From assembly GCA_900095875.1 (NCBI GenBank), contig LT608311.1, positions 2,326,774 through 2,390,773 on the forward strand: a stretch of 64,000 nucleotides of DNA, written 5' to 3'. This document shows positions 4,510 to 16,311 of the stretch, one piece after another. The translations under genes and the position numbers were made by a program. The notes under the pieces are model-generated. The model made no database searches. It worked only from the letters and a program-made list of their open reading frames with translations, and was not told where the DNA came from. How positions within the stretch are numbered: the first letter of the stretch is position 1; the number at the start of each line of letters is the position of its first letter. This stretch comes from Caecibacter massiliensis (GTDB lineage: Bacteria > Bacillota > Negativicutes > Veillonellales > Megasphaeraceae).

Positions 4510-4800
4510 ATGTTCAAATTTGATTTACAGCTGTTTGCCCATAAAAAAGGGGTAGGTAGTACACGTAACGGCCGTGACAGCGAATCCAAACGCCTTGGCG
4601 TCAAATGCCACGACGGTGTTATCGTTAAAGCCGGCAACATCATCGTTCGCCAGCGCGGCACTCACTTCCATCCGGGCACGAACGTAGGCATCGGCAAAGA
4701 TGATACGTTATTTGCTACGGCTGCTGGTAAAGTTGCTTTTGAACGTGCTGGCAAATACAACCGGAAAGTCAGCGTTTACCCGGTTGAAGCCGAAGCATAA
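4510..4800 (+). CDS. rpmA: 50S ribosomal protein L27 with cleavable N-terminal extension
   Basis: The protein is 96 residues and starts [18 protein letters not shown]. The first ten residues ([10 protein letters not shown]) match the Prp cleavage-type leader known in Firmicutes L27, with cutting expected before HKKG to expose the mature N-terminus that reaches the peptidyl transferase centre. I chose the ATG at 4510 because an AGGAGGTGA site precedes it by about 6 bases; an open frame upstream has no such site. The rest ([23 protein letters not shown]) is canonical L27. A terminator follows about 20 bases later. Confidence 0.96.
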
Positions 4801-4819
4801 TCATACAGGCTCGTATAAA

Positions 4820-4866
4820 AGAGAGTTTTTCCTTATAGGTCATCTATGAGGAGAACTCTCTTTTTT
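4820..4866 (+). terminator. rho-independent terminator of the rplU-prp-rpmA operon
   Basis: An inverted repeat (agagagtttt / agaactctct arms) flanks a loop of about 20 bases and is followed by a run of six T. Confidence 0.8.
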
Positions 4867-4912
4867 GTTGTCGTTATACGTTATTTTTTTCACTAATTTT
4901 AGAAAAAATCTA

Positions 4913-4941
4913 TTGTCAAATGGTCCGTTCTATGCTAAACT
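4913..4941 (+). promoter_or_regulatory. promoter of the ECF-transporter leader
   Basis: TTGTCA at 4913-4918 and TAAACT at 4936-4941 are 17 bases apart. The predicted transcript starts near 4948, right at the first base of a structured leader. Confidence 0.65.
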
Positions 4942-4947
4942 ATGCAA

Positions 4948-5088
4948 AGTGCCAGAGGGTCGTGAAACAAAGGGCTGGTCAGTATCCACGACGAGCTGAA
5001 CCGTGGCTTCCACGACATGAGGACACAAATTTTTGTTACGACTTATATCCCATGAGAAAGCGGGAGTAAGAACGGAGGAGAATTTCAT
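4948..5088 (+). promoter_or_regulatory. structured leader RNA of unknown class (riboswitch candidate)
   Basis: The 140-base leader can form GCCA/TGGC (4951-4954 with 5004-5007), enclosing GTCGTG/CACGAC (4959-4964 with 4987-4992). The hairpin loop GGTCAG (4977-4982) can pair with CTGAACC (4996-5002), giving a pseudoknot. A second CACGAC at 5011-5016 can compete for the same GTCGTG, and CGTGG/CCACG (5002-5006 with 5010-5014) is another exclusive hairpin. Alternative pairing ahead of a vitamin-type transporter gene is typical of riboswitches. I could not match it to the cobalamin, TPP, THF, preQ1 or SAM consensus by eye. Confidence 0.45.
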
Positions 5089-5709
5089 ATGGAAAAAGTA
5101 AAAACGTTACCTGGGCAGCATCAGTTCATGAGTGTACGGCAGCTTACGGTTGCCGGTTTTCTGTCGGCTATTACCATTTTTCTGGGACTTACCGGATATG
5201 GCTTCATTCCCCTGATCATCATGAATGCGACCATTCTTCACATTCCGACGATCATCGGCAGCATCTCCGCAGGACGCCGCGTCGGTATGATTGTCGGTTT
5301 CATGTTCGGTCTGTTTTCGTTCATCCGTACGCTGCAGGCACCGAGTGCCCTGTTGATGTTTGCCGTACAGTACAGCATCGTGGCAGACGCCTTCATCTGC
5401 ATCGTACCGCGTATTATGATCGGTGTCGTAGCCTATGAATTGTACAAGCACCTGAAAATCCGTGAAGTTGCCCGTGTTGCCGTAACGGCTGTTGTCACGA
5501 CGGTCTGCCATACGGTCATGTTCCTCGGATCCTTTACGGCTATCGTCGGCATGCCCTATGCCGAAGCACACGGCATTACCCTGGCTAACGTTTTCAATAT
5601 CATGGCCGGGATCACTGTCGTCAACGGCATTCCTGAAGCCATCGTTTCGGGCCTCATCGTTACGCCGATTGTCATGGCGCTCCATCGCTCCGGCCTGAAA
5701 GTACAATAA
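5089..5709 (+). CDS. ECF transporter S component (substrate-binding membrane subunit)
   Basis: This 206-residue protein has about six hydrophobic segments and the S-component signature in MNATILHIPTIIGSISAGRR, where a His-Ile-Pro is followed by a small-residue helix, then GMIVGFMFGLFSF. S components bind a vitamin or metal ion and dock onto a shared energising module (EcfT plus two ATPases), which is not encoded nearby. The long leader suggests control by the transported ligand. The family look (HIP motif) recalls the pantothenate or cobalamin-precursor type groups, but the substrate cannot be fixed. AACGGAGGAG precedes the ATG. It is a single gene with its own promoter and terminator. Confidence 0.75.
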   Translation: MEKVKTLPGQHQFMSVRQLTVAGFLSAITIFLGLTGYGFIPLIIMNATILHIPTIIGSISAGRRVGMIVGFMFGLFSFIRTLQAPSALLMFAVQYSIVADAFICIVPRIMIGVVAYELYKHLKIREVARVAVTAVVTTVCHTVMFLGSFTAIVGMPYAEAHGITLANVFNIMAGITVVNGIPEAIVSGLIVTPIVMALHRSGLKVQ

Positions 5710-5758: not shown

Positions 5759-5833
5759 TATATGGCTTTTTCTTCACGTCCGACGGCCTTTGTAGTATAA
5801 TTTATATATACACTATTGATAAAGGACTATTTC

Positions 5834-7630
5834 ATGAAGACGCTTCTTACGACATTAAATGCTAAATACGTTCAATCATCCCTGGCCCTGCGCTGTCTGC
5901 GCACGGCCTGCCTCCATGCCGGACGCACGGATGTAGTAACGGCAGAATATACGATCAATCACAATGCCTATGACATTTTGCGCCATATTTACCAGTTCCA
6001 TGCAGAAGTCATCGGCTTTTCGTGTTATATCTGGAATATAGAAATGACCTGCCGCATCATCATGCTGATCCGCCAGGTCATGCCCCATGTCTGTATCTTC
6101 GTAGGAGGACCGGAAGTATCGTATACTGCCCGGGAAGTCCTCGACGACCATCCCGATATCGACTACGTCCTTCAGGGAGAAGGGGAACGCATCGTACCGG
6201 CTTTCCTGCGCGCATTGGAAGAAGGCCGCGACGGCACGGATATTCCCGGCGTCCTGGGCCGTGTGGCAGGGGAGATACGGGGAAATGAAGTGTTTGCCGA
6301 AGTAGCGGACCTGGATACCCTGCCTTTTCCCTACGAAGGTGAAGATTTCAGCCAGCTGGCCCATAAAATCATCTATTATGAAAGCTCACGGGGATGCCCG
6401 TTCCACTGCCAATACTGCCTGTCCGGCATGAGTGATACGGTCCGGTTCCGCTCCGTGCCGCTGGTCCTGTCTGAACTGGAGCAGTTCGTCGCCGCCGGGG
6501 TCCACCAGGTAAAATTCGTGGACCGGACATTCAACTGCAATCCCCGTCATCACCGGCCCCTCATCGAATACATGATTCACGTGCAGAAGCCGGTCAATTT
6601 CCATCTCGAGATTGAACCGGGCGTCCTCACCGATGACGATCTGGATCTGCTGGCCCGGGCCCCGAAAGGACGGATCCAGCTGGAAATGGGCATCCAGTCT
6701 ACATATGAACCGACGCTGAAGGCGATTCACCGCCACAATGACTGGCCCCGCATTACGGCCATCATGAAGAAGCTGACGTCCCTCCATACGATGCACCTCC
6801 ATCTCGATCTGATCGTCGGGCTGCCTTATGAAGATTATGACCATCTGCAGCAGTCGTTCAATGATATTTATGCGTTGCGGCCGGACAAACTCCAGATTGG
6901 CTTCCTAAAGCTGCTCAAAGGATCGGGCATCCGCCGCGACTATCCCGATGATTACCGCTATGATCCGTGCGGCCCTTATGAAGTACTGGCCACGACCTGG
7001 CTCCCTTATGAAAAGGTGCAGTTCCTGAAAGTGCTGGAAGATGTATTCGAACGGACCTATAATTCAGGAAAATTTTTCTATACCCTGCGTTATCTGGAGC
7101 GGTTTTATGCAGACAATATATTCCGGCTCTATGAAGCCATGACCCGGTCCTGGCTGAAAGCCGGCAATGACCGTATCGCCGTGGCCGATAAAGCCCTCTG
7201 CCACTTCCTCTGGGATTTCATCTGTCACGATGCCCGTGTTCCCGCACCGGCTCATAGGGTACTAAAGGAATTGTTGTCCCTCGACATGCTGATTACCTTC
7301 CGGTTCCGCCTGCTGCCAGACTTTCTCGGCTGGCAGGAAGCGCCGCGGAAGGATACGGACCGGCTGTTCCGCGAAGAAGAACGGCTTCGCCCGTATATAG
7401 GAAACTACCGGTTTACCAACTGGCGGGATATTAAAATGCGTTATCGCATCTGGCCAGTGTGTGACAGGACGAAAGAAGCCCTGTCCTGCTATCGCCATGC
7501 ACCAGCCGGTCACGCCTGGATCATCTCCTTCAAAGACGATGAAGGCATATCCTGGCAGATGATGGCGGCAGCAGCGGATGGACGGCAGGAGACAGAAGAT
7601 ACAGGAAAGGATTGTCATGGAACGATATAA
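5834..7630 (+). CDS. B12-binding-domain radical SAM protein, DUF4080 type
   Basis: The protein is 598 residues from the ATG at 5834; an AAAGGA site 7 bases upstream favours this over an in-frame ATG at 5816. The N-terminus (KTLLTTLNAKYVQSSLALRCL) is a Rossmann-like B12-binding-type domain as in DUF4080 proteins. YYESSRGCPFHCQYCLSG then gives the CxxxCxxC motif that holds the radical SAM [4Fe-4S] cluster. GIQSTYEPTL and LIVGLPYED are later TIM-barrel motifs. The substrate of this family is not known; members are often annotated as possible methyltransferases. Its end overlaps the next radical SAM gene by 14 bases, so the two are co-translated. Confidence 0.8.
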   Translation: MKTLLTTLNAKYVQSSLALRCLRTACLHAGRTDVVTAEYTINHNAYDILRHIYQFHAEVIGFSCYIWNIEMTCRIIMLIRQVMPHVCIFVGGPEVSYTAREVLDDHPDIDYVLQGEGERIVPAFLRALEEGRDGTDIPGVLGRVAGEIRGNEVFAEVADLDTLPFPYEGEDFSQLAHKIIYYESSRGCPFHCQYCLSGMSDTVRFRSVPLVLSELEQFVAAGVHQVKFVDRTFNCNPRHHRPLIEYMIHVQKPVNFHLEIEPGVLTDDDLDLLARAPKGRIQLEMGIQSTYEPTLKAIHRHNDWPRITAIMKKLTSLHTMHLHLDLIVGLPYEDYDHLQQSFNDIYALRPDKLQIGFLKLLKGSGIRRDYPDDYRYDPCGPYEVLATTWLPYEKVQFLKVLEDVFERTYNSGKFFYTLRYLERFYADNIFRLYEAMTRSWLKAGNDRIAVADKALCHFLWDFICHDARVPAPAHRVLKELLSLDMLITFRFRLLPDFLGWQEAPRKDTDRLFREEERLRPYIGNYRFTNWRDIKMRYRIWPVCDRTKEALSCYRHAPAGHAWIISFKDDEGISWQMMAAAADGRQETEDTGKDCHGTI

Positions 7631-16174: not shown

Positions 16175-16189
16175 TACGTATACAATCAT

Positions 16190-16288
16190 TTCATCTGCCG
16201 GATAGAAATCCGTTGGACTTGGCACCTTCCCGCTATGGGGGGTTGCCGCAGCGTCATAGGGCCATTCCCTCGGCTGCTCTGGATGAAT
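16190..16288 (-). promoter_or_regulatory. SAM-I (S-box) riboswitch
   Basis: Read on the minus strand, the conserved blocks GAGGGAATGGCCC, TGACGCTGCGGCAACC and GGAAGGTGCCAAGTCC are present in order. P1 closes with TTCATC (16283-16288) and GATGAA (16190-16195). SAM binding stabilises the aptamer and lets the following terminator form, shutting off methionine uptake. Confidence 0.93.
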
Positions 16289-16311
16289 AGGTTATGTAAT
16301 TGCTGAGTTGT

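Follow-up and report, generated by a model that had tools for sequence, protein, structure and literature searches.

A predicted pan motif RNA at the ribosome-binding site of a likely pantothenate transporter gene in Caecibacter massiliensis

We analysed a 64,000-nucleotide (nt) stretch of the Caecibacter massiliensis genome (GenBank assembly GCA_900095875.1, contig LT608311.1, positions 2,326,774 to 2,390,773 of the forward strand), referred to below as the window and numbered from its own first letter. The element of interest is the leader at 4948-5088, which lies between a small open reading frame (ORF) with a terminator-like hairpin and an ORF of 206 amino acids at 5089-5709. We take the small ORF upstream to encode ribosomal protein L27. 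A first-pass annotation had proposed that the leader might be a new class of riboswitch ahead of the S component of an energy-coupling factor (ECF) transporter. On comparative evidence, the leader is a real structured RNA and a diverged, sub-threshold copy of the pan motif, RF01749, and not a new class. The features of the locus are collected in Table 1.

The product of the 206-amino-acid ORF matches PF12822, the family of ECF transporter S components, while an NCBIfam search returned no match for it. A search of the PDB with a profile of 30 homologues gave four chains at E≤0.01: 4rfs (5.7e-25), 6zg3 (2.8e-18) and two ThiT entries (2e-4 and 0.004). The first two are both named PanT in passages of PMC7755397, and the closest solved relatives of the window protein in this profile search are pantothenate S components. 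When an AlphaFold2 model (mean predicted local distance difference test score, pLDDT, 86.7) was compared with solved structures using Foldseek, 4rfs ranked first and 6zg3 third, with a riboflavin S component in second place; the fold alone is therefore less specific for PanT. Models of PanB and PanC found no match in the window's genome, which fits an importer-dependent auxotroph, and two EcfT-like matches lie elsewhere in the same genome. PanT is found mostly in vitamin B5 auxotrophs, according to passages of PMC6593275. The gene is a good candidate for panT, likely encoding a pantothenate-binding ECF S component whose transport activity is predicted.

At its curated thresholds Rfam gave no match at the leader, and the known family came to light through a relaxed search and through the leaders of orthologous genes. 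When 401 nt were searched against all 4227 families, 4976-5078 matched the pan motif with 30.1 bits (E 0.0022); the other families reported at 4800-5200 were microRNA and long non-coding RNA matches alone, far under their cut-offs. Four orthologous leaders (our loci L039-L042, out of the 17 family loci with this S component) pass the Rfam cut-off at the same place, and in three genomes (L012, L013 and L016) an RF01749 match lies directly before the orthologue of the window gene. Since the window copy falls under the gathering score, its membership rests on structural features and on these orthologues. All 15 genomes of the genus have at least one RF01749 match above the cut-off, which in the window's own genome is at a different site. 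Elsewhere in the genus, pan copies stand before PanC, DUF2520 and BASS genes, and PanB or PanC lies a short way further downstream; the window copy precedes a likely pantothenate importer gene and not a synthesis gene, so the pathway is the same and the kind of target is new.

The structural evidence comes from an alignment (A2) of 22 leaders of panT orthologues and homologues, from which the window was left out, and from the model R1 that was based on it. With the two-hairpin pan structure placed on A2, 91.1% of cells were paired, as compared with 82.6% after shuffling. Changes on both sides were found in 11 of 21 pairs (six of the ten in hairpin 1 and five of the 11 in hairpin 2) versus 6.9 after shuffling, with one of 500 shuffles as high, and the covariation score was 0.392 versus 0.207, with none of 500 as high and slid versions of the structure reaching at most 0.131. 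R1 matches the window with 53.7 bits (E 1.4e-9), its sole match in the 64 kb at E≤10. It also matches, end to end, all nine of the 32 panT leaders that had no clean hairpin 1 and were left out of both A2 and the hairpin 1 table, and it recognizes the terminator-type pan sites L001, L003 and L017. In a scan for the topology, hairpin 1 was found without mismatch and hairpin 2 with one (A.A), on a background, counting both strands of the 64 kb and these two hairpins themselves, of eight hits without mismatch and 122 with at most one. Folding energy does not set the leader apart from chance (z -1.22, with 26 of 200 shuffles folding equally well) and is uninformative as evidence, and 6-bp Watson-Crick matches in the leader are also at chance (2 seen, 1.7 expected); the shuffles for this match count, like those of the loop-match, Shine-Dalgarno-extension and antiterminator tests below, kept base composition alone.

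An unrelated new class with a pseudoknotted architecture would be in keeping with the window copy missing the gathering score and with a stem between GTCGTG and CACGAC (5011), which is present in the predicted fold and has equivalents in relatives, but it has to contend with the sub-threshold pan match in the window and the orthologues over threshold at the same place, with the covariation of both hairpins and the 53.7-bit match to a window-free model, and with the fact that a model of panT leaders picks up terminator-type sites. We consider such a class very improbable; the orthologues, the covariation and the R1 match refute membership outside the pan family. A clear match to a known family, named at the outset as something that would refute a new class, exists by way of the orthologous leaders, although the window copy itself stays under the Rfam cut-off. 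What stands of the original proposal is a structured leader, borne out by the covariation and by R1, ahead of an ECF S component gene, borne out by PF12822.

The two hairpins share a design of three outer pairs, a 3' bulged A, five pairs, a 5' bulged A and two to three inner pairs. Hairpin 1 (4976-5003) has 3 outer bp, the bulged A 5000 on its 3' side, 5 middle bp, the bulged A 4984 on its 5' side and 2 inner bp; hairpin 2 (5039-5074) has the bulged A 5047 and A 5071, an A.A as its third outer pair, and a long loop. Among 62 distinct hairpin 2 sequences from a wider set, the third outer pair is AA in 32 and U-A or A-U in another 13. The base bulged on the 3' side is an A in all 62, although the scan does not require this. 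In the window, hairpin 2 closes on the opening G of the Shine-Dalgarno sequence, leaving 14 nt to the panT ATG. It ends on that G in all 32 panT leaders (20 found by protein search alone and 12 through the pan motif itself), 9-14 nt upstream of the start codon, a range narrowed by the fact that, for several leaders, Shine-Dalgarno spacing was taken into account in choosing between in-frame start codons.

This anatomy differs from the one first drawn, although every string of letters it was built from is present: GCCA at 4951-4954, TGGC at 5004-5007, GTCGTG at 4959-4964, GGTCAG at 4977-4982, CTGAACC at 4996-5002 and CACGAC in two copies at 4987-4992 and 5011-5016. The supposed loop-to-junction pseudoknot of GGTCAG with CTGAACC is actually the helix of hairpin 1. 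The nested pairings GCCA/TGGC and GTCGTG with the first CACGAC, which lies in the hairpin 1 loop, both have a predicted probability of 0.0 in the window, and the pseudoknot and the GCCA/TGGC stem, the latter judged on the fold of the window, find no support. Nor do relatives support the loop pairing, since in 19 other leaders displayed the upstream strand matches the 4-7 nt loop of hairpin 1 over at most 4 bp. A ccc/ggg hairpin noticed before the ribosome site corresponds to the top of hairpin 2, the last base of which is the first G of GGAGG. The transcript start proposed at about 4948 is compatible with a sigma-70-like promoter, although such a pattern occurs at chance level (one match, shuffle mean 1.0); TTGgCA...TATaCT-like boxes are seen by eye at the matching place in relatives.

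The second CACGAC copy is predicted to pair with GTCGTG, as had been suggested. This enclosing stem, P0, has a probability of 0.75-0.99 in the predicted fold of the window, and position-equivalent stems, between the strand upstream of hairpin 1 and the linker, reach p≤0.05 in 15 of 40 thinned panT leaders versus 20 of 200 control positions (Fisher p 5e-5), a control rate that is twice the nominal 5% with dinucleotide shuffles. Terminator-type pan sites resemble the control, with an enclosing stem in 12 of 93 (p 0.55). For this test both hairpins were located in 55 of 75 panT sites and 113 of 118 other sites, which were then thinned to 40 and 93. The stem was also tried as a general pan feature with a swap test (z -6.5 at terminator-type and -9.3 at panT sites) and rejected as such: the test is confounded by base composition, and dinucleotide shuffles remove the terminator-type signal.

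Table 1. Features of the panT locus, in window coordinates
Feature	Positions	Strand	Basis or remark
Terminator-like hairpin	4827-4855	+	3' of the upstream small ORF, splits two units; 1 seen, 0.3 expected
Sigma-70-like promoter TTGTCA-17-TAAACT, TG before -10	4913-4941	+	Transcript start at about 4948
Enclosing stem P0, GTCGTG 4959-4964 / CACGAC 5011-5016	4959-5016	+	Encloses hairpin 1; absent from the Rfam pan model
Predicted pan hairpin 1	4976-5003	+	Relaxed Rfam match, topology scan, covariation, model R1
Predicted pan hairpin 2	5039-5074	+	Design of hairpin 1; 3' end adjoins and overlaps the Shine-Dalgarno sequence
Shine-Dalgarno sequence GGAGG	5074-5078	+	Hairpin 2 is closed by its first G
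Likely panT, ECF transporter S component, pantothenate type, 206 amino acids	5089-5709	+	PF12822, PDB profile search, Foldseek

The panT leaders were set beside other members of the family in a collection of 134 pan sites, made up of the listed matches in the order, the best-scoring loci of the class and phylum and 40 sites from multi-site genomes, and hence top-scoring or chosen sites and not a random sample. A strictly defined intrinsic terminator follows the motif at 101 of the 118 non-panT sites, at none of the 16 panT sites and at 11 of 400 random positions; the strict detector replaced a lax one that fired at 70 of 300 random places. Where such a terminator is present at non-panT sites, its 5' arm can pair with the 3' strand of hairpin 2, at a mean of -11.9 kcal/mol versus -6.7 for other terminators, and this antiterminator pairing beats at least 95% of controls at 56 of 101 sites. 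In a thinned set of 57 sites, z averaged -1.37 for the 5' arm and +0.18, that is, no signal, for the terminator 3' arm, and at least three nucleotides of hairpin 2 take part in 56 of the 57 pairings. Because of this complementarity, hairpin 2 and the antiterminator are likely to be alternatives, folded hairpin 2 meaning termination. We conclude that the pan leader carries a predicted expression platform in cis, with hairpin 2 at the Shine-Dalgarno sequence in the window and a terminator and antiterminator at other sites. What the computation shows directly is membership of the family, covariation, placement, the identity of the gene by homology and the complementarity to the terminator.

We think it likely that the window leader is a translational-type pan RNA that tunes PanT production to the supply of pantothenate or coenzyme A (CoA). 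In this model, the pan hairpins would sit between the promoter and the start codon, with hairpin 2 on the Shine-Dalgarno sequence of panT. When pantothenate or CoA is plentiful, an effector, either a metabolite of the pathway or a protein reporting on it, would hold the bulged-A hairpins folded; the folded hairpin 2 would block 30S binding, and import would stop. When supply is low, hairpin 2 would open and PanT would be made. Elsewhere, the folded hairpin 2 would keep its 3' strand from the 5' arm of the terminator, so that the terminator would form and the operon would be off. Since folded hairpin 2 would mean termination at those sites and a crowded ribosome site at panT, both placements imply that the gene is off when the effector is present, which is the sign expected for end-product control. 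We infer this sign, as well as the effector and the mechanism in the cell, from the arrangement of the hairpins.

Several points weigh against the translational-type model. The 30.1 bits of the window copy are below the RF01749 gathering score of 36.2, and its locus (L032) is not listed in a 60-kb RF01749 search at E≤1. The predicted fold of the window has hairpin 2, but mostly lacks hairpin 1 as drawn (pair probability 0.15-0.30). In the leaders L033 and L034 hairpin 1 is rebuilt, with about 17 extra nt in its top and no bulged A on the 3' side, next to an intact hairpin 2, and therefore a strict tandem geometry is not a requirement. In the predicted fold of the window, hairpin 2 is extended by pairing with the linker in a way that hides the Shine-Dalgarno sequence; this extension was rejected as a conserved feature (3 of 47 at p≤0.05), so that a block would have to be steric. 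The antiterminator pairing is individually significant at 22 of the 57 thinned sites, and most PanT-like genes of the phylum sample are without a pan element among the matches listed, which were strictly filtered. To these we add the selection of the 134 sites and of several start codons described above. As a separate observation, the R1 scores of L035-L037 are similarly low to those of L033 and L034.

One way to accommodate the low Rfam score, which lies under those of the orthologues, and the long hairpin 2 loop is that the window copy is a relic that has diverged and no longer regulates. We regard this as quite improbable, since the copy has retained its inner pairs, its distance to the start codon and every one of its four bulged A's, and the R1 score of the window is mid-list within the order.

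As for the effector of the proposed pan RNA, our confidence is shared among a protein, which we give an even chance, a metabolite, which we regard as possible but somewhat doubtful, and a small remainder for other kinds. A dimeric protein reporting CoA or pantothenate could bind the pan hairpins and make the leader a protein-controlled translational operator. A pair of small, similarly built hairpins that have conserved bulged A's but lack a multi-helix pocket would suit such a protein, as would the rebuilding of hairpin 1 in L033 and L034 while hairpin 2 was kept, and a dimeric protein site was suggested by the discoverers of the motif in passages of PMC2864571; however, with the motif in 168 of 300 class genomes and 159 of 398 phylum genomes, such a protein would have to be equally widespread. 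Alternatively, the tandem may bind a CoA-pathway metabolite directly and constitute an undiscovered pantothenate/CoA riboswitch. Small hairpins are poor pockets for a metabolite, and the riboswitch column of the discoverers' table, as excerpted from PMC2864571, has a '?'; on the other hand, the targets are largely genes that make CoA precursors or plausibly take them up (125 of 134 sites), the motif comes in terminator-linked and ribosome-site-linked forms as riboswitches do, and a passage of PMC10043782 places CoA among the fundamental molecules without a validated riboswitch a decade earlier. The first-pass description of a ligand-sensing leader holds insofar as the leader is structured and conserved, but the pseudoknotted, nested architecture drawn for it fails, and the excerpted PMC2864571 leaned to a dimeric protein site. 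Literature searches gave no answer on ligand versus protein among the matches listed, and a term search in PMC7266159 had no match.

The genes downstream of the 134 sites were grouped by BLASTP clustering, with one representative of each larger cluster scanned against Pfam and single cases judged by eye. They comprise 37 DUF2520, 27 PanC, 21 BASS and 18 PanB genes and 16 ECF S components, the last cluster being assigned through the PF12822 match of the window gene, followed by two each of BirA, SSF, OPT, BioY-like and PanD and five single cases. A PanB, PanC, PanD, DUF2520, BASS, SSF, PanT-like or BioY-like gene is found at 125 of 134 sites, and these are plausibly all of pantothenate synthesis or uptake kinds. 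Here we take DUF2520 to be a probable ketopantoate reductase and the SSF transporters at pan sites to be of the PanF type. For the BASS kind, passages of PMC6593275 describe PanS as a pantoate transporter.

In Bacillus subtilis, PanU, an S component that resembles biotin-specific ones, imports pantothenate (passages of PMC11487621). Two BioY-like S components (L161 and L163) lie directly 3' of pan motifs with terminators, consistent with B. subtilis PanU, and pan could separate pantothenate-type BioY paralogues from biotin ones. OPT-family oligopeptide transporters lie 3' of pan motifs at L153 and L156 and are candidates for the import of pantetheine or of CoA precursors that resemble peptides. 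The second pan element of the window's genome (L001:1501-1595, at G000:C2:1533242-1533336; 55 bits) stands before the gene of a class C type acid phosphatase (PF03767), and right after its hairpin 2 a terminator-like GGGCAG/CTGCCC is seen by eye; our guess is that this enzyme could dephosphorylate phosphorylated pantothenate precursors before import, as a form of salvage. Three genomes (G035, G038 and G039; L207-L209 and L221-L223) have a second PanT-like gene at a distance of about 1 kb from the first, and both genes have a pan leader of their own. A weak pan-like match at L076 (G018:C1:901892-901973; 25.2 bits), before what looks by eye like a small thioesterase-like ORF and with no pantothenate gene among the ORFs displayed, is probably due to chance.

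R1 matches occur in 55 of 61 genomes of the order at E≤0.01 and Rfam pan matches in 30 of 61 at E≤0.05, two tallies that rest on different E-value limits; in the phylum sample R1 matches 37 of 398 genomes. A PanT-like gene is 3' of the R1 match at 75 of 83 places (eight further listed places were left out), a preference that is partly built in because R1 was trained on panT leaders, and the other eight are, by eye, ordinary pan sites before PanB, PanC or OPT genes. PanT-like genes are present in 136 of the 398 phylum genomes. From genomes that also have a listed pan match, 58 PanT-like matches were chosen by eye among the matches listed; 37 of these have a pan element within 160 nt upstream and 6 more have one within 3 kb on the same strand.

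Elsewhere in the window, the gene 3' of panT (5816-7630, + strand) encodes a B12-binding radical S-adenosylmethionine (SAM) protein with a DUF4080 domain, and a SAM riboswitch (RF00162) is a clear match at 16188-16289 on the - strand (86.9 bits).

When Weinberg et al. (PMC2864571) described the pan motif in 2010, no effector was known for it. That paper was the sole one in the open-licence literature searched that joins 'pan motif' with 'riboswitch' or 'pantothenate', and broader searches gave, among the matches listed, mostly viral PAN RNA or unrelated PAN domains. The two placements suggest both a sign of regulation and a concrete mechanism that can be tested, and with them the motif becomes a marker for pantothenate transporters whose substrate is uncertain. 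A bolder reading, which we think unlikely but worth stating, is that the pan RNA senses CoA or one of its precursors directly: a bulged-A hairpin unit with two interchangeable platforms would then control a whole pantothenate regulon across Firmicutes, several unrelated transporter families included, and its translational half, which tends to fall below the Rfam cut-off, would have been overlooked. If that were true, terminator choice would serve the synthesis genes and most transporters, and the ribosome-site block would serve panT. The effector is worth settling either way, because PMC10043782 lists CoA as lacking a validated riboswitch a decade earlier, in a passage that does not state its present status.

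Compared with the pan motif as described in passages of PMC2864571, the window leader has the same two tandem hairpins with two conserved bulged A's each, upstream of a likely pantothenate gene. It differs in standing ahead of panT, in the fusion of hairpin 2 to the ribosome site and in the extra stem around hairpin 1, and it belongs to a group of S-component loci of which 4/17 score above the Rfam cut-off. The terminator-type pan sites are similar to attenuator leaders in that they may use the 3' strand of hairpin 2 as an antiterminator, whereas the window leader is of the other kind, with a strict terminator at 0/16 panT sites. Finally, the window leader is similar to translational riboswitches and other leaders that occlude the ribosome-binding site, with a conserved hairpin that adjoins the Shine-Dalgarno sequence at narrow spacing, but unlike those riboswitches it has this arrangement without a multi-helix aptamer.
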